Positions 31,228 through 47,969 of a DNA stretch of 61,958 nt are shown piece after piece. How positions within the stretch are numbered: the first letter of the stretch is position 1; each line of letters starts with the position of its first letter. The stretch covers positions 1 to 61,958 of the forward strand of contig NZ_JAUNHL010000007.1 of assembly GCF_030523955.1 (NCBI RefSeq), written 5' to 3'. The notes below the pieces were generated by a model. The model worked only from the letters and a program-made list of their open reading frames with translations. It searched no databases and had not been told where the DNA came from. The stretch is from Neisseria sp. (GTDB taxonomy: Bacteria > Pseudomonadota > Gammaproteobacteria > Burkholderiales > Neisseriaceae). Both the position numbers and the translations under genes were made by a program.

Positions 31228-31848
31228 ATGTCTGATAACGACGATCATAAAGAACAGCGGATTGGTTTATGGGTTGCCGGCGGCGCCGCCGGTTTGGCGA
31301 CTTTGGCCATTTTGTTCTATGCGGTTTACGGTTGGGAGAGCGGCAAGATCGAAGGCTCGCCGGGTTATGGCCAGGCGGCTTCTGCCGCAGCGGCTTCGGC
31401 GGCTTCCGAACCGGCGGCGGCGGTTTTGGCTGCGCCCGAATCGCAGTCTATTTCGGCATCGGTTGCGGCCAGCGAACCGCTTGCGGCGGCTGCTTCGACT
31501 GCCGCGGTGGCTGCGGATGCGGCCAGTGCGGTGGTGGAAAACGGTGTGGTGAAATTCTATTTCGCAACCGGCAAAGCGGATTTGGCCGATAATGCAGAAG
31601 AGGCGCTTAAGGATGTATTGGCCGGTGTGCGCGAAGGCAAAAAAGCGGTGGTATCCGGTTATAACGATAGCACCGGCAATGCGGCTGCCAATGAGGAGTT
31701 GTCGAAAAACCGTGCTTTGGCGGTACGCAATGCGCTGTTGGGATTCGGTGTGCCGGAAAGCCAGATTGAATTGCGCAAACCGGAAAATACCGAAGCCGGC
31801 CAAGGTGATAATGCCCAAGCGCGCCGTGTGGAAGTGGTTTTGGAATAA
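31228..31848 (+). CDS. membrane-anchored OmpA-domain protein
   Basis: 206 residues. One transmembrane segment (about 12-34) without a cleavage site is followed by an Ala/Ser/Glu-rich flexible region (about 48-105) and an OmpA C-terminal-like domain (about 106-206). The peptidoglycan-contact residues are present: Asp in GYNDSTG and Arg in ELSKNRALAV. It should tether the inner membrane to peptidoglycan. By eye about 58 of 100 aligned positions are identical to the C-terminal domain of the ccoP product at 45068, and the linker style (AASAASEPAA) is shared too. TATAAT at 31165-31170 may be its -10. A DUS terminator follows. Confidence 0.88.
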   Translation: MSDNDDHKEQRIGLWVAGGAAGLATLAILFYAVYGWESGKIEGSPGYGQAASAAAASAASEPAAAVLAAPESQSISASVAASEPLAAAASTAAVAADAASAVVENGVVKFYFATGKADLADNAEEALKDVLAGVREGKKAVVSGYNDSTGNAAANEELSKNRALAVRNALLGFGVPESQIELRKPENTEAGQGDNAQARRVEVVLE

Positions 31849-40714: not shown

Positions 40715-42472
40715 TTATTGGTTTTGCAACCAAACGGACAATAAATCCTGATCTTCGATTTTCAGATAGGCTGTATCTGCGGCGGCGGCTTGTACGGTTA
40801 GCTCGGTTTGCAGCAAATAGCCGTGGCGGAAATAATGCAGGCTGACCGTATCGCCGATGGAGAGCTTTTGCCAGAGTTGGTTGAAATCGCTGCATTGAAA
40901 GCCGTTGAGCGCGATGATGCGGTCTTGTGCGGCCAAGCCGGCTTGCTCGGCGCTGCCGTGGTTAAATACATGGGTGAGGGTGATGCTGTCGCCGTTTTGT
41001 TTGAAGCGTGCACCAAAATCGCTAACGCTGTTTTCGGCTGGAAATTCTGCTACTACGTTGCCGCCGCTTGAGCGATTGGCGGGCAGCCAACGCAGGTCGA
41101 TACCGGCGGTTTTCAGACAGGCATTTAAGGGTAGATCACGGGTGCTGAAGATGGCTTCTTGGAAAAAGCCGTCTAAATTCAAGCCGGTAATTTCTTCGGC
41201 ACGACGCTGCCATTCGTTTTCGTTTAAACCTTTACCGTTTTGCAACCAGTCTTGATACAGCGCCCGCATTACACTGTCGAGGCTGTGTTGCTGTTGGCTT
41301 TGTTGGCGGATGGTTAGATCCAAGCATAAGGCGGCCAGCGCGCCTTTTTGGTAATAGCTGACGATGGCGTTGGGGCTGTTTTCGTCTTGTTTGTAATACT
41401 TGGTCCAAGCATTGAAACTGGATTGTGTCAGTGTTTGTTTCAACCGGCCGCCGCCTTGTTGTACGCGGGTAATGTTGTTGGCCAAGAGTTTCAGATAGGC
41501 CTCTTGGCTGATCACGCCGCTTCTTGCCAGTAATAAATCGTCGTAATAAGAAGTGATGCCTTCGAATGCCCACAGCAACTCAGTATGGCTTTCGTGGTCT
41601 AAATGATAAGGCTGGAAGGCGGCGGGTTTGATGGATTTCACGTTCCAAGCGTGGAAGTACTCGTGCGCAAACAAACCCAGTAGCTCGGTATAGGCGTCAT
41701 CGGCCGTTTTCATATTGCGTGCAGGCAGGCTGTGGCGGTCGGCCATGAGTGCGGTGCTGCTGATATGCTCGAGGCCTCCGTATACATGATCGCCGAGAAA
41801 CAGCATAAACAGGTATTCGGAAAAGGGCGCGGGAGAGGGAAACATCTGCAAAGCGGTTTCGCAGATTTGGCAGACGTCTCGCAATAGGCGTTCGCGGTCG
41901 AAATCAGGATAGTGGCCGGAAAGGGCGATGCGGTGCGAAATGCCGTTGGTCTGAAAAGAGAGGATTTCCAATTGCCCCATTTCTACCGGGTGGTCGATTA
42001 AATCGGCATAAGATGGCGCACTAAATTCGTTATCTGACTCCGAAAAACGGGGGAGGGTGGTGGCAATCTGCCAGCCGGCGGGTAAATTGTGCAGGCTGAT
42101 GCGGTGTTCTTGTTCAGACAGGCCTGCTACCTTGAGAAACAGGCAGGCGCCGTCGAAAAAAGCACGCTCATTGCTAAGAAACGAGCCGCGTACGGATAAA
42201 TCATAGGCATAAACGGTGTAACGGATATACCATCTGCCGGCCCTTGGTGTGGTGTGCCAAGTGTTTTTATTGATTTGCTCCAATGGTTCGGATTGGCCGT
42301 TGCATTCTGCTTCGATACTGATGATATGGCGGGCGAAATCGCGAATCATATAACTGCCGGGCACCCAGTTGGCCAAAGATAATTTGGTTGGAATATCGGC
42401 GGGTTGCTCAAAAGTCAACTCTATTTGCCACTGATGGCTGGAAGGATGGGGTTGTAGGATGTAATGCAACAT
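40715..42472 (-). CDS. M61 glycyl aminopeptidase-like metalloprotease with PDZ domain
   Basis: 585 residues. The N-terminal beta-domain (about 1-160), the zinc motif HEYFHAWNVK (HExxH about residue 272) with a downstream WAFEGITSYYDDL Glu ligand, and a C-terminal PDZ domain (about 495-575, SAEQAGLAAQDRIIALNGF) match family M61. No signal peptide is seen. Two DUS lie inside the gene (near 41114 and 42114), so uptake sequences have been fitted into coding sequence. Confidence 0.9.
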   Translation of the reverse strand: MLHYILQPHPSSHQWQIELTFEQPADIPTKLSLANWVPGSYMIRDFARHIISIEAECNGQSEPLEQINKNTWHTTPRAGRWYIRYTVYAYDLSVRGSFLSNERAFFDGACLFLKVAGLSEQEHRISLHNLPAGWQIATTLPRFSESDNEFSAPSYADLIDHPVEMGQLEILSFQTNGISHRIALSGHYPDFDRERLLRDVCQICETALQMFPSPAPFSEYLFMLFLGDHVYGGLEHISSTALMADRHSLPARNMKTADDAYTELLGLFAHEYFHAWNVKSIKPAAFQPYHLDHESHTELLWAFEGITSYYDDLLLARSGVISQEAYLKLLANNITRVQQGGGRLKQTLTQSSFNAWTKYYKQDENSPNAIVSYYQKGALAALCLDLTIRQQSQQQHSLDSVMRALYQDWLQNGKGLNENEWQRRAEEITGLNLDGFFQEAIFSTRDLPLNACLKTAGIDLRWLPANRSSGGNVVAEFPAENSVSDFGARFKQNGDSITLTHVFNHGSAEQAGLAAQDRIIALNGFQCSDFNQLWQKLSIGDTVSLHYFRHGYLLQTELTVQAAAADTAYLKIEDQDLLSVWLQNQ

Positions 42473-42516
42473 AAAACGGCCTGTTTGTTAAGATTTGTTT
42501 GTGATTTTGGGGCTGT

Positions 42517-42556
42517 TTGACATTCGTCAAATAAAACACAATTCAAAATCTATACT
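42517..42556 (+). promoter_or_regulatory. likely FNR-dependent class II promoter of ccoNOQP
   Basis: TTGAC-ATTC-GTCAA (42517-42530) is a perfect 5-4-5 dyad one base per half off the FNR consensus TTGAT-N4-ATCAA. A TATACT -10 lies at 42551-42556. The dyad centre is about 40-41 bases before the expected start near 42564, the class II activator position. A second possible sigma-70 promoter (TTGACG, 17-base spacer, TATGCC) lies at 42586-42614. The leader before ccoN would be over 200 nt. Confidence 0.6.
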
Positions 42557-42796
42557 CTTACAAAATCAACAGAAAGGCAACTTAATTGACGGAATAAAAT
42601 TGCGGTTTTATGCCGATTTGTCTTGGTGTGCAGCCTGTTTTGATTTAAAATGCCCCAGTTAAACTTCCGCCTGCTTTAGCAGTGTCTTAGGAAAACGGTG
42701 TTAAATTAAGAAAAATCGGGTACTTGCTTCAGCCGTCTGTAGCGTGCGGAAAAGCTTCCCGTCAGATGTTAATTGCCATGTTAATGGAGAATCTTC

Positions 42797-44233
42797 ATGG
42801 AAACGCAAACTTATAACTACAAGGTGGTGCGCCAATTTGCCATCATGACTGTAGTTTGGGGTATTGTGGGTATGCTGGTCGGTGTTATTGCCGCCGCTCA
42901 GCTGTTTGCGCCCGCACTCGACCTGTCAAACATCGGTCCGTGGTTTCACTTCGGCCGTATCCGTCCTTTGCACACCAACGCGGTGATTTTCGCTTTCGGT
43001 GGCTGCGGCCTGTTCGCTACTTCATATTATGTAGTACAGCGTACTTGTAATACCCGCCTGTTCGGTGGCAACTTCCTGCCGGCCTTTACTTTCTGGGGGT
43101 GGCAGCTGGTTATCGTTTGCGCGGCTATTTTGTTGCCTTTGGGTTATACACAAGGTAAGGAATATGCTGAGTTGCCTTGGCCGGTAGATATTCTGATTGC
43201 CGTGGTGTGGATTGCTTATGCTATTGTATTCTTCGGCACCATCGCCAAGCGCAAAATTAAGCATATCTATGTAGCCAACTGGTTCTACGGATCATTTATT
43301 CTGGCCGTGGCGTTGCTGCACATTGTTAATAATCTGGCTGTGCCGTCAGGTTTGTTCTGGTCTTATCCGATTTACTCGGGTGCCATCGATGCGATGGTGC
43401 AATGGTGGTATGGCCACAATGCGGTAGGTTTCTTCTTAACTGCTGCTTTCTTGGGCATGATGTATTACTTTGTACCGAAGCAAGCCGGCCGCCCGGTTTA
43501 TTCTTACCGCTTGTCGGTGGTTCACTTTTGGGCGCTGATTTTCACCTATATGTGGGCAGGCCCTCACCATTTGCACTACACTGCATTGCCTGATTGGACC
43601 CAATCTTTGGGCATGGTGTTGTCATTGATTCTGTTTGCACCCTCTTGGGGCGGTATGATTAACGGCATCATGACGCTTTCCGGCGCATGGCATAAGCTGC
43701 GCACTGACCCGGTATTGAAATTCTTGGTGGTCTCACTCTCCTTCTACGGTATGTCTACCTTTGAAGGCCCGATGATGTCTATTAAAACCGTTAACGCATT
43801 GAGCCACTACACCGACTGGACTGTCGGACATGTACACTCCGGTGCTTTGGGTTGGGTAGGATTTATTACCATCGGCTCTTTGTATTATTTGATTCCGCGT
43901 CTGTTCGGTACCAAAGGCATGTACAGCACCAAATTGGTTGAACTGCACTTTTGGGTAGCCACTGTGGGCATCGTGCTTTACATCAGCTCTATGTGGATTT
44001 CCGGTGTAATGCAAGGCCTGATGTGGGGTCAGTTGAATACTGACGGTACTTTGACTTATTCTTTTGTTGAGTCGGTTAAACAGAGCATGCCTTTTTATGT
44101 TATCCGTTTTGTAGGCGGTTTATTGTACTTGAGCGGCATGTTTGTCATGGCCTACAACGTTTACCGTACTGTTATGGCAGGAAAACCGGTTGATGCAGCT
44201 ATACCGGTAGTAGCCCAAAGCGAACACCACTGA
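42797..44233 (+). CDS. ccoN: cbb3 cytochrome oxidase subunit I
   Basis: 478 residues with about twelve TM helices. Haem and copper ligands are visible in [16 protein letters not shown] (His for haem b), [27 protein letters not shown] (CuB His pair) and [17 protein letters not shown]. It is the proton-pumping catalytic subunit of the high-affinity terminal oxidase in the inner membrane. GGAGAATCTTC precedes the ATG. Confidence 0.97.
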
Positions 44234-44258
44234 TAAATGCAGAGAATAGGCTGTTAAA

Positions 44259-44870
44259 ATGAAATTACAACCATTAGTAGAAGAGAAAGTCGGCTTCCTA
44301 ATCGTATTTACCTTCTTGGTGATTAGCGTGGGTTTGCTGATTGAAGTTGTACCTTTGTTCTTTACAAAATCGGTTACTGAGCCGATTCCGGGTCTGAAGC
44401 CCTACAATGCGCTGCAAGTGGCCGGACGTGATGTTTATATCCGCGAAGGCTGTTATAACTGCCACTCGCAAATGATTCGTCCGTTCCGTGCGGAAACCGA
44501 GCGTTACGGCCATTATTCGGTAGGTGGTGAGTCGGTTTACGACCATCCCTTCCAATGGGGCTCCAAACGTACCGGCCCGGATTTGGCGCGCGTAGGCGGC
44601 CGCTATTCCGACGAATGGCATCGTATTCACCTGTTAAATCCGCGTGACGTTGTACCTGAATCCAATATGCCTGCATTCCCGTGGCTGGCGCGTAACCGTC
44701 TAGATCCTGAAGTGGTGACGCGTAATATGCGAGCGTTGCGTACTACCGGCGTTCCTTATACGGAAGAAGATTTTAAAGCGGCTCCTGAATTGCTGGCTAA
44801 CAAATCTGAATTGGATGCGGTGATTGCCTATCTGCAAGGCTTGGGCACTACACTGAAAAATACAAGGTAA
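44259..44870 (+). CDS. ccoO: cbb3 oxidase mono-haem subunit II
   Basis: 203 residues. One N-terminal TM helix (about 14-35), then a periplasmic cytochrome c domain with [12 protein letters not shown] and the axial Met in [10 protein letters not shown]. It passes electrons from CcoP to the CcoN haem. It lies 25 bp after ccoN. Confidence 0.97.
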
Positions 44871-44871
44871 C

Positions 44872-45024
44872 ATGATGGATCTTAATTGGGCGCGCAGTTT
44901 ATTTACCGTATGGGTGTTTGTCAGTTTTATATTGGTTCTTTATGTGGTTACACGTAAGCGTAACAAAAAGAATTACGATGATGCTGCCAAAAGTATCATG
45001 GATGACGAAGACACCCCTAATTAA
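44872..45024 (+). CDS. ccoQ: cbb3 oxidase small subunit
   Basis: 50 residues starting MMDLNWARSLFTVWVFVSF, with one TM helix (about 8-26) followed by a charged TRKRNKKNYDDA tail. It starts one base after the ccoO stop. Size, topology and position match CcoQ, which stabilises the complex. Confidence 0.9.
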   Translation: MMDLNWARSLFTVWVFVSFILVLYVVTRKRNKKNYDDAAKSIMDDEDTPN

Positions 45025-45067
45025 AAAATGCGTAGCCCTATTATTCCCGTGACAACGGAGCGAAAGA

Positions 45068-46486
45068 ATGAATTCAACTTCACAATTTACCAGCAGCTTC
45101 TGGAGCTATTACATCATTGCCATCGTGGTATTGAGTTTTATCGGCTTAGCTTGGTTGCTGTTGTCTCAAAATAAGGTGAAAGCGCCACCCAAAGGTGAAG
45201 AGGTTAAGACCATGGGTCACTCTTGGGATGGTATCGAGGAATATAACAACCCTCTGCCGCGCTGGTGGTTTTATATGTTTATTGTAACCATGGTGGTCGG
45301 TGTGGTTTATCTGCTGGTTTATCCGGGTTTGGGGGATTTCAAGGGCTTTGCCGGTTGGACCAGCAAGAATCAATATGAAAAAGAAGTCGAAGCGGCCAAC
45401 AAACAATATGGAGAGTTATACGCTAAATTTGCCAAAATGCCGGTTGAACAGTTGGCAAAAGACCCGCAAGCTCAGCGTATTGGTCAAAACTTATTCAATA
45501 CCTACTGTATTCAGTGCCACGGCTCTGATGCCAAAGGTTCCAAAGGCTTTCCCAACCTGACCGATACCGATTGGTTATGGGGCGGTACGCCTGAGAAAAT
45601 CAGCGAAACCATTTCCAAAGGCCGTGTAGGCGTGATGGCGGCTTGGGGGCCAACTTTGGGTGAAGAGCGTGTGAAAGACGTAGCCAACTATGTATTGTCT
45701 TTGTCTAAGCCCGAGGAACAGTACGATCCTGTACGTGCTGAGCGTGGTGCTGCCGTATTCCATAATCCGCCTGCCAACTGTTATACCTGCCACGGTGATA
45801 AGGGGCAGGGCGTTCAAGGTACGGGCCCAAATCTGACTGATGACGTATGGTTATGGGGCGGTTCGCAAAAAGCCATTATCGATACTATTACCAACGGTCA
45901 TCATAACCAGATGCCTGCTTGGCAGAACTTCTTAGGTAACGATAAAGTACATCTGCTGACTGCTTATGTTTGGGGTTTGTCTCATCCGGATGGTAAAGCT
46001 TTGCCGACTGATAGCACTAATGCTTTGGGCGCTAAAGCCGCGGCCGCTGCGAAAGCTGCACCTGCTGCTTCAGCTGCTTCTGAACCTGCGGCTGTATCGG
46101 CATCTGCTGCTTCTGCACCGGCTGCCGCACCTGCTGAGGACAAAGCTGATGTAACTTACGATACCCAAGCAGGCACTCAAGTTGCTACTTTCTTCTTCGC
46201 AACCGGTAAAAGCGATGTAGCTGTCAATGCGGCATCTGTAGTAGGTGATGTGATTGCAGCCGGCAAAGAAGGCAAAAAATTAGTTATCAGTGGATATACC
46301 GACAGTACCGGTAATGCAGCTGCTAATGCCGAACTTTCCAAAAAACGTGCGCAAGCAGTGCAGGCTTTCTTTGAAAAACAAGGTGTGAAAGCTGCCAATA
46401 TCGAATTGAGGAAGCCGGAGAGTACTACCGGTGCCCAAGGTAATAATGCAGAAGGCCGTCGCGTAGAAGTGAAGGTTGCCGGTTAA
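45068..46486 (+). CDS. ccoP: CcoP di-haem subunit fused to an OmpA-like domain
   Basis: 472 residues. TM helices at about 11-33 and 67-88 are followed by two cytochrome c domains with CIQCH (147-151) and CYTCH (238-242). An Ala/Ser/Pro/Glu linker (about 318-368) leads to an OmpA C-terminal-like domain (372-472: FFFATGKSDV, GYTDSTGNAAANAELSKKRA, GRRVEVKV). The Asp and Arg used by OmpA domains to hold peptidoglycan are present. Family members have two haems, and gonococcal-type CcoP has a third C-terminal haem domain. Here that position is taken by the OmpA domain and no third CxxCH exists. The frame is continuous with a normal stop. GGAG precedes the ATG. Confidence 0.93.
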   Translation: MNSTSQFTSSFWSYYIIAIVVLSFIGLAWLLLSQNKVKAPPKGEEVKTMGHSWDGIEEYNNPLPRWWFYMFIVTMVVGVVYLLVYPGLGDFKGFAGWTSKNQYEKEVEAANKQYGELYAKFAKMPVEQLAKDPQAQRIGQNLFNTYCIQCHGSDAKGSKGFPNLTDTDWLWGGTPEKISETISKGRVGVMAAWGPTLGEERVKDVANYVLSLSKPEEQYDPVRAERGAAVFHNPPANCYTCHGDKGQGVQGTGPNLTDDVWLWGGSQKAIIDTITNGHHNQMPAWQNFLGNDKVHLLTAYVWGLSHPDGKALPTDSTNALGAKAAAAAKAAPAASAASEPAAVSASAASAPAAAPAEDKADVTYDTQAGTQVATFFFATGKSDVAVNAASVVGDVIAAGKEGKKLVISGYTDSTGNAAANAELSKKRAQAVQAFFEKQGVKAANIELRKPESTTGAQGNNAEGRRVEVKVAG

Positions 46487-46515
46487 ACCACACTGAATAT
46501 AAGTTGTTTTCATAG

Positions 46516-46568
46516 CCGCTTGGATGAGTAACTCTGTTTGCAGAGTATTTCAACCAAGCGGTTTTATT
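46516..46568 (+). terminator. cco operon terminator
   Basis: CCGCTTGG (46516-46523) and CCAAGCGG (46554-46561) enclose an inner hairpin (ACTCTG/CAGAGT) and are followed by TTTTATT. Not DUS based. Confidence 0.75.
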
Positions 46569-46718
46569 GATCATTTGGCTCAAGTTTTCCGGCAGTTATT
46601 TTACGGCTTACCCCTCTTATAAGCTTCTTCTTAAAACGAATTAACCTGTTTTGCGGTAGAATGCGGGTTTTGCTCAGAAAACAAGATGGCAGGCGAAATG
46701 CCTGTCTGAAAAGGTAAA

Positions 46719-47969
46719 ATGGCTTCCTTAGAAACATGGATAGGCCTGCGCTATTTGCGGGCGAAAAAGCGTAACGGCTTTATGTCGTTCATTACGCTGA
46801 TATCGATAATCGGCATTGCCTTGGGCGTTACCGCATTAATTGTTGTGCTTTCCGTTATGAACGGATTTCAAAAAGAAATTCGCGGGCAGATGCTAAGTGC
46901 TTCACCGCATGCAGAAATCGGTTTTCAAGACCAGGGCGGCAGGGAACAGTGGCAGCAATTGCGTAAAGTGGTTGCCGGTAATCCGGAAGTGTTGGCCGAT
47001 GCCCCTTATGTAGAGGGGCAAGCTTTACTCGCGAATACGGGGCAAGTGCGTGGCGTGAAACTACGTGGTATTGATCCGGCTGAAGAAAAGAAAGTAGTCG
47101 ATTATTGGAAAGATATGCCCAGCGGCAGTTTTGATGATTTAAAAGCAGATGATTTTGATATTATCTTAGGAGCCGGGGTGGCGGATTCCTTGGGGGTAGT
47201 GATAGGCGGTAAGGTAACCGTTATTGCGCCGGAAGGGAATGTAACGCCAGCCGGTGTGGTGCCGCGCCTAAAGCAGTTTCGCGTAGTCGGTATTGTAAAA
47301 ACAGGATTATTCGAAACGGATAACACTTTGGCACTTACGCACATTAAAGATGCGCAAACGTTTTACCGTTTGGGGGAGGGAGTAACCGGTATCCGCCTGA
47401 AACTGGCTCATCCGCAGCAAGCGCTGTCATTTACTAGTGGTCTGTTGAATCCGGAACAGTTGAAAACCATGTGGGTGCGCGATTGGACTTTCGAAAACCG
47501 TACTTATTTCCAAGCGGTTGAGTTGGAAAGGCGCATGATGTCCATCATCCTGATGCTGATTATTGCCGTAGCGGTGTTTAACCTAGTGGCTTCGTTAGTC
47601 ATGGCGGTAACCGAGAAACAGGCGGATATTGCGATTTTGCGTACCATAGGCATGGCGCCGGGTAGTGTGATGAAAATCTTTATGGTGCAAGGTGCTGTGG
47701 CCGGTTTTTTCGGTACGGTGCTCGGAATGGTTATCGGAGTTGTTGTCGGTATCAATGTCGGCGGAATTGTCGCTTTTTTTGAAAATCTGCTGGGTGTGAG
47801 CTTGGTGCAATCACAAGTGATGTTTCTCGATCAATTGCCGAGCGATGTCAAGATAGAAGACGTTTTGATTATTGCGGCTATTTCTTTGTTTTTGTCTTTT
47901 ATTGCGACGCTCTATCCGAGTTGGCGTGCGTCGAAAATCCAACCGGCGGAGGCTTTGCGTTATGAGTGA
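46719..47969 (+). CDS. lolC: lipoprotein-releasing ABC transporter permease
   Basis: 416 residues. TM1 at about 25-50, a periplasmic MacB-like domain (about 55-260) and three TM helices near 275-400. The start [22 protein letters not shown] and the end [18 protein letters not shown] are typical of LolC/LolE. It detaches lipoproteins from the inner membrane for LolA. Only one such permease gene is adjacent to lolD, so it may act as a LolF-type homodimer. A wadDUS lies just before the start. Confidence 0.92.

Follow-up and report, generated by a model that had tools for sequence, protein, structure and literature searches.

The C-terminus of CcoP, subunit III of the cbb3-type oxidases, lies in the periplasm, and the OmpA-type domains of MotB, PomB and TagL hold those machines to the cell wall. 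In the main text of Aspholm et al. (2010; PMC2924362), which does not contain the word OmpA, a tri-haem CcoP is presented as a mark of Neisseria as a whole. The CcoP considered here is encoded in a contig of Neisseria sp. (NZ_JAUNHL010000007.1, assembly GCF_030523955.1), the window analysed being the whole stretch of 61,958 nucleotides. It shares with the tri-haem protein the core, the site of the added domain and the type of alanine-rich linker, but the added domain is an OmpA domain, whereas that of tri-haem CcoP is a c5-type haem domain. Our analysis makes it probable that the gene encodes an oxidase subunit III with a periplasmic OmpA-type peptidoglycan-binding domain on a flexible linker, that the oxidase is thereby tethered, and that this is the older form in the family, later replaced by the third haem.

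Residues 39-306 of the 472-residue protein match the CcoP model TIGR00782 of NCBIfam with 354.5 bits against a cut-off of 179.95, the Pfam family Cytochrome_CBB3 matches in two stretches, and solved CcoP chains align with residues 9-306 (best 8snh, E = 3e-89). Only two CxxCH motifs are present, making the protein di-haem; the third, C-terminal CxxCH of tri-haem CcoP is lacking. A linker of about 70 residues is followed by an OmpA domain (PF00691, residues 376-461, E = 6e-13, 49.3 bits against a Pfam gathering score of 27.2), and solved OmpA-family chains align with this C-terminal part (best 5wtp, E = 1e-8). The coordinates, uninterrupted frame and domain content read in the original prediction were all borne out (Table 1).

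We searched 83 genomes at the protein level and found CcoP in 66; all belong to the family, by which we mean the grouping of the genome collection searched, whose codes cannot be matched to NCBI names. The C-terminus carries the OmpA domain in 37 of these, a third haem in 18 and neither in a readable frame in ten, and it is cut by a contig end in one; no protein among the 66 carries both. Within the window's own genus (46 genomes) the corresponding numbers are 24 with OmpA, 18 with the third haem and four with neither. A survey of CcoP homologues for a C-terminal OmpA domain had been put forward as a check on the prediction; the same one-frame fusion was found in 36 further genomes of the family; for G060 and G062 the OmpA state was assigned by BLAST, and in G042 the 5' end of the fusion is cut by a contig edge. 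Among the ten with neither domain, G028 has an interrupted ccoP frame and a piece of third-haem sequence followed by a stop, and G010 has, after a shortened ccoP, a broken OmpA remnant that contains three stops (G010:C1:1951251-1951469), which suggests a recent loss of the domain. A look with short motifs behind six shortened ccoP genes found no remnant, though G010 has one.

Outside the family, no CcoP match among those listed for an order-level sample of 399 genomes or for a phylum-level sample of 398 extends into the OmpA part. Fused proteins should score highest, and a wider proteobacterial spread of the fusion was rejected on the matches listed for these samples. One match, L186, was listed to query residue 425, but its CcoP frame of 305 residues ends before such a domain. 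A scan of genome contigs with P0001 gave no match. A profile of the OmpA module, run against 94 loci, matched two, both from Neisseria (L165 and L166; Neisseria sp. 83E34 and a Neisseria metagenome-assembled genome); the 92 loci without a match were N. polysaccharea (L167, with a third haem), 77 named loci, including Crenobacter (L171; Neisseriaceae in the NCBI taxonomy), and 14 chosen for long frames.

Based on the predicted structure, the C-terminal domain adopts the OmpA/Pal fold, with fold matches that include 5y40, 3wpw, 5m38 and 7bba. The pocket residues Asp412 and Arg427, at a spacing of 15, are kept in all 37 fused proteins; we take their roles from Asp271 and Arg286 of Acinetobacter OmpA, which bind diaminopimelate. 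An OmpA-like fold and a peptidoglycan pocket were what the original prediction depended on; the domain as modelled has the fold, and its sequence keeps the two pocket residues. Its claim that subunit III ties the oxidase directly to the wall stood in part. A tether is the natural reading because both the sequence and the predicted fold place the domain in the OmpA family and the Asp/Arg pair is retained throughout, but wall binding, the tethered placement of the oxidase and the fixing of its position or electron donor are predictions from sequence and model. It also weighs against the tether that the domain, with seven losses in the reconstruction given below, is dispensable in some lineages, that OmpA-type folds are capable of other functions and that the domain model is of moderate confidence, with the block 451-460 at a predicted local distance difference test score (pLDDT) of 50 even in the full-length model.

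One such function would be docking on a periplasmic or outer-membrane protein, such as a porin, a c-type cytochrome or the nitrite reductase AniA, in place of peptidoglycan. Complexes of OmpA-type domains with proteins have been solved (Pal-TolB and YfiB-YfiR, by their structure titles), and there are lineages with another domain, a haem domain, at that place. However, docking on a protein would not obviously need the Asp/Arg pair, and two other architectures in the family bear the same module without any haem; we regard docking as unlikely. Less likely still is a periplasmic cut within the linker, by which one gene would yield a CcoP with two haems and a separate OmpA-type protein, leaving the oxidase untethered. 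The linker is long (35-98 residues in the 37 proteins), of low complexity and of low model confidence (pLDDT below 50 at residues 313-324 and 330-358 of the full-length model), and it could be open to proteases, but linkers vary in length and composition among species, and their alignment shows no conspicuous conserved site, though no search aimed at one was made.

It is just as improbable that the domain is a passenger, brought in by recombination between alanine-rich linkers and without function for the oxidase. Such linkers precede the OmpA modules and the third haem domain alike and are likely ground for module shuffling, and seven losses of the OmpA domain are inferred below; yet the domain is widely present in the family and its sequence is constrained. 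The ratio of nonsynonymous to synonymous substitution rates (dN/dS; Nei-Gojobori method, own script, 12 species pairs), which is rough in some pairs because dS exceeds 1, was 0.03-0.16 for the OmpA part (10 pairs with computable dS), 0.07-0.40 for the linker (11 pairs) and 0.01-0.18 for the CcoP core (12 pairs). The linker had the lower ratio in one of the nine pairs that have values for both it and the OmpA part. The OmpA domain is therefore under purifying selection in the pairs tested, though less strictly than the core of the same pair in six of ten, which is a point in the passenger's favour. Chance, or an assembly or sequencing error joining two genes in the window, on which the prediction could also have foundered, is ruled out because the same one-frame fusion recurs in the 36 further genomes, 14 of them single-contig assemblies; in G001, not in this window, a contig ends inside the linker of the gene and another contig begins with the OmpA half.

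The original prediction had further taken the OmpA domain to have replaced the third haem. Fitch parsimony on a tree of the CcoP core that includes seven di-haem rows as outgroup (G028 and G042 left out) gives the reverse. Its ten changes comprise one OmpA gain near the family base, two changes from OmpA to the third haem, affecting 15 rows (support 100/97) and three rows (support 100/95), and seven OmpA losses; a third haem older than the OmpA domain is disfavoured by this rooted reconstruction. Mapping on a family tree, also proposed with the prediction, found the OmpA state widespread: in an RpoB tree of 64 genomes it is scattered over the family and is borne by G081 and G054, the earliest branches to follow the root, which is a single row. 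A single OmpA gain is the simplest reading of these trees, not a proven one.

Several observations weigh against so simple a history. The gain branch is weak (support 52/26) and the outgroup rows do not form one clade; and g4, a genus with bare di-haem CcoP (G005, G006, G008), likewise diverges early in both the RpoB and the CcoP-core trees. In a tree of the OmpA modules themselves (77 modules, 99 columns) it takes five changes to account for the 37 CcoP modules, and starred branches force at least three of these; eight CcoP modules (genera g5, g8 and g11) lie nearer to short OmpA proteins, so CcoP may have acquired or swapped its module on more than one occasion. Because of the weak branch, the split outgroup, the deep position of g4 and the module tree, the single gain is not secure.

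The same module is found in proteins that are not oxidase subunits and carry no haem domain. A single-helix protein of 206 residues, encoded in the window itself, has an OmpA part 52% identical to CcoP residues 313-469. Other genomes of the family encode relatives of this protein, and one such genome (G076) belongs to a genus in which CcoP had no strong match. Eighteen long proteins (L039-L055 without L049, and L057 and L058) have an Ala/Ser-rich linker and the same OmpA module; we label them DUF937 after the one protein that was run against Pfam, in which DUF937 is present. In the rows listed, their alanine-rich linker is followed by a module 59-68% identical to that of the window CcoP. The DUF937 modules form one group in the module tree, with a value of 84 in the Shimodaira-Hasegawa-like approximate likelihood ratio test (SH-aLRT), beside some CcoP modules; the G065 row labelled TM is, by eye, a long DUF937-like protein. 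With so few columns the tree lacks the strength to identify donor and receiver of the module.

As to the third haem, two changes are needed in 200 of 200 bootstrap trees of the CcoP core, and the third-haem label needs four changes on the RpoB tree; against a repeated origin, the approximately unbiased test does not reject a single third-haem clade (p = 0.065). A haem-domain tree places the third haems of G012, G021 and G039 with the last cytochrome c5 domains of these genomes (SH-aLRT 93), and in G012 the third haem and the genome's own c5 share an identical stretch of 87 residues. The other 15 third haems group with c5-type domains of their own wider group. A derivation of the third haem from cytochrome c5 is supported by this sequence grouping, and a separate recruitment in the small lineage of G012, G021 and G039 would fit it, though gene conversion could produce the same picture. 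Two c5-like proteins, L340 (G036) and L342 (G010), have three haem-domain matches in one frame, in open frames of 415 and 402 amino acids.

AniA, a copper nitrite reductase, exceeds the family cut-off in 46 of the 83 genomes. We read 40 AniA loci and counted 39 of them; the one excluded, in G039, has a frame that enters masked bases. A C-terminal CxxCH domain is present on AniA in 16 genomes with OmpA-bearing CcoP and absent in seven (one of which, G050, has an interrupted frame), present in none and absent in 11 with tri-haem CcoP, and present in two and absent in two with di-haem CcoP; it is also present in the contig-split case. Another six tri-haem genomes, outside the 39, have AniA frames of 407-413 amino acids by search length. 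In the series L259-L278 the extra CxxCH occurs at 19 of 20 loci, 16 of them in genomes with OmpA-bearing CcoP; L277 runs into masked bases. The third haem of CcoP and the haem of AniA are never found together among the 39 loci, but since the tree (CcoP core, G028 left out) offers only three independent pairs, without significance, this exclusion is a lead and not a result.

Combining these strands, we tentatively propose, with rather less confidence than the tether itself, that the CcoP C-terminus in Neisseriaceae may be an exchange slot. The anchor would be older and would have been swapped twice, separately, for a haem domain from the lineage's own cytochrome c5, accompanied by loss or absence of the AniA haem domain found in most anchored species with AniA. 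The tri-haem CcoP of the gonococcal lineage might then be a derived rewiring of a wall-tethered chain.

The genes ccoN, ccoO and a ccoQ-like frame lie immediately 5' of the fused ccoP, on the same strand and in the usual order, forming an operon-like row (Table 1). An Rfam scan of positions 42000-47000 gave no match. Elsewhere, TGCCTGTCTGAA occurs 36 times, spread over the whole window, and AGGCCGTCTGAA 13 times, only between 2.2 and 28.2 kb and partly as close pairs. The two presumably represent two dialects of the Neisseria DNA uptake sequence, the second perhaps marking DNA taken up from another species.

Table 1. Features of the window discussed in the text.
Feature	Coordinates	Strand	Basis
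Related protein, 206 aa, not part of the oxidase	31228..31848	+	One hydrophobic stretch close to the N-terminus (by eye); linker rich in Ala; OmpA domain of the type in CcoP
ccoN, cbb3 oxidase subunit I	42797..44233	+	TIGR00780, 838.9 bits against cut-off 583
ccoO, cbb3 oxidase subunit II	44259..44870	+	TIGR00781, 320 bits against cut-off 201; FixO PF02433
ccoQ-like frame, 50 aa	44872..45024	+	Translation, position and length only; one hydrophobic stretch by eye
ccoP fused to OmpA-family domain, 472 aa	45068..46486	+	Translation without internal stop; NCBIfam and Pfam
FixP_N region of CcoP, residues 46-91	45203..45340	+	PF14715, 84 bits
First haem-binding CxxCH, residues 147-151	45506..45520	+	
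Second haem-binding CxxCH, residues 238-242	45779..45793	+	
Ala/Ser/Pro-rich linker, about residues 307-372	45986..46183	+	Sequence; low pLDDT
OmpA-family domain, residues 373-472	46184..46483	+	PF00691 at 376-461; fold matches
Asp412, pocket motif	46301..46303	+	Invariant in 37 of 37 fused proteins
Arg427, pocket motif	46346..46348	+	Invariant in 37 of 37 fused proteins

If the tether holds, the OmpA-type domain would grip the diaminopimelate of the peptidoglycan peptide stems, a linker of the length found would let it reach the wall, and the oxidase, itself in the inner membrane, would be fastened to the wall in the manner of stators and secretion machines. The two c-haems of CcoP could thus be held within reach of periplasmic electron carriers, at a fixed height and with little lateral movement of the oxidase. 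From this older, tethered form, the third haem of the gonococcal lineage would later have taken the anchor's place on the same kind of linker, a trade in which the wall anchor may have been given up for an electron wire towards AniA. A wall-bound oxidase would matter for the placement of respiratory complexes and their freedom to diffuse, and the family, with anchored, haem-bearing and bare forms, provides a natural series for testing such a tether. The tri-haem CcoP, so far described as a genus-wide mark of Neisseria, appears to have come later, in place of an anchor still present in 24 of the 46 genomes sampled from the genus.

The view that such an anchored oxidase is undescribed held in the open-licence literature, judged mostly by title and abstract, where we found no CcoP with an OmpA domain; most subscription papers lie outside that scope. 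A word search of PMC9395523 gave no hit for ccoP or OmpA. Among known systems, the CcoP joined to cytochrome cy in PDB 6xkx (PMC7876108), which we take to be an engineered construct, has an added C-terminal domain as the fused CcoP does, but there it is a haem domain and not OmpA. MotB, PomB and TagL bear a domain of the same fold as that of CcoP, as the structural matches given above indicate, but they belong to stators and a secretion system, whereas CcoP is an electron-transfer subunit. Among energy-converting complexes, the nearest parallel is PsaB, a core subunit of photosystem I (PDB 7f4v, chain aB), which according to PMC9000952 comes from Gloeobacter violaceus. The main text of that structure paper contains neither the word OmpA nor the word C-terminal. 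Residues 761-864 of this PsaB form a C-terminal OmpA-family stretch that matches the profile of the CcoP domain with E = 2e-7, although PsaB belongs to a cyanobacterial photosystem and CcoP to a respiratory oxidase.
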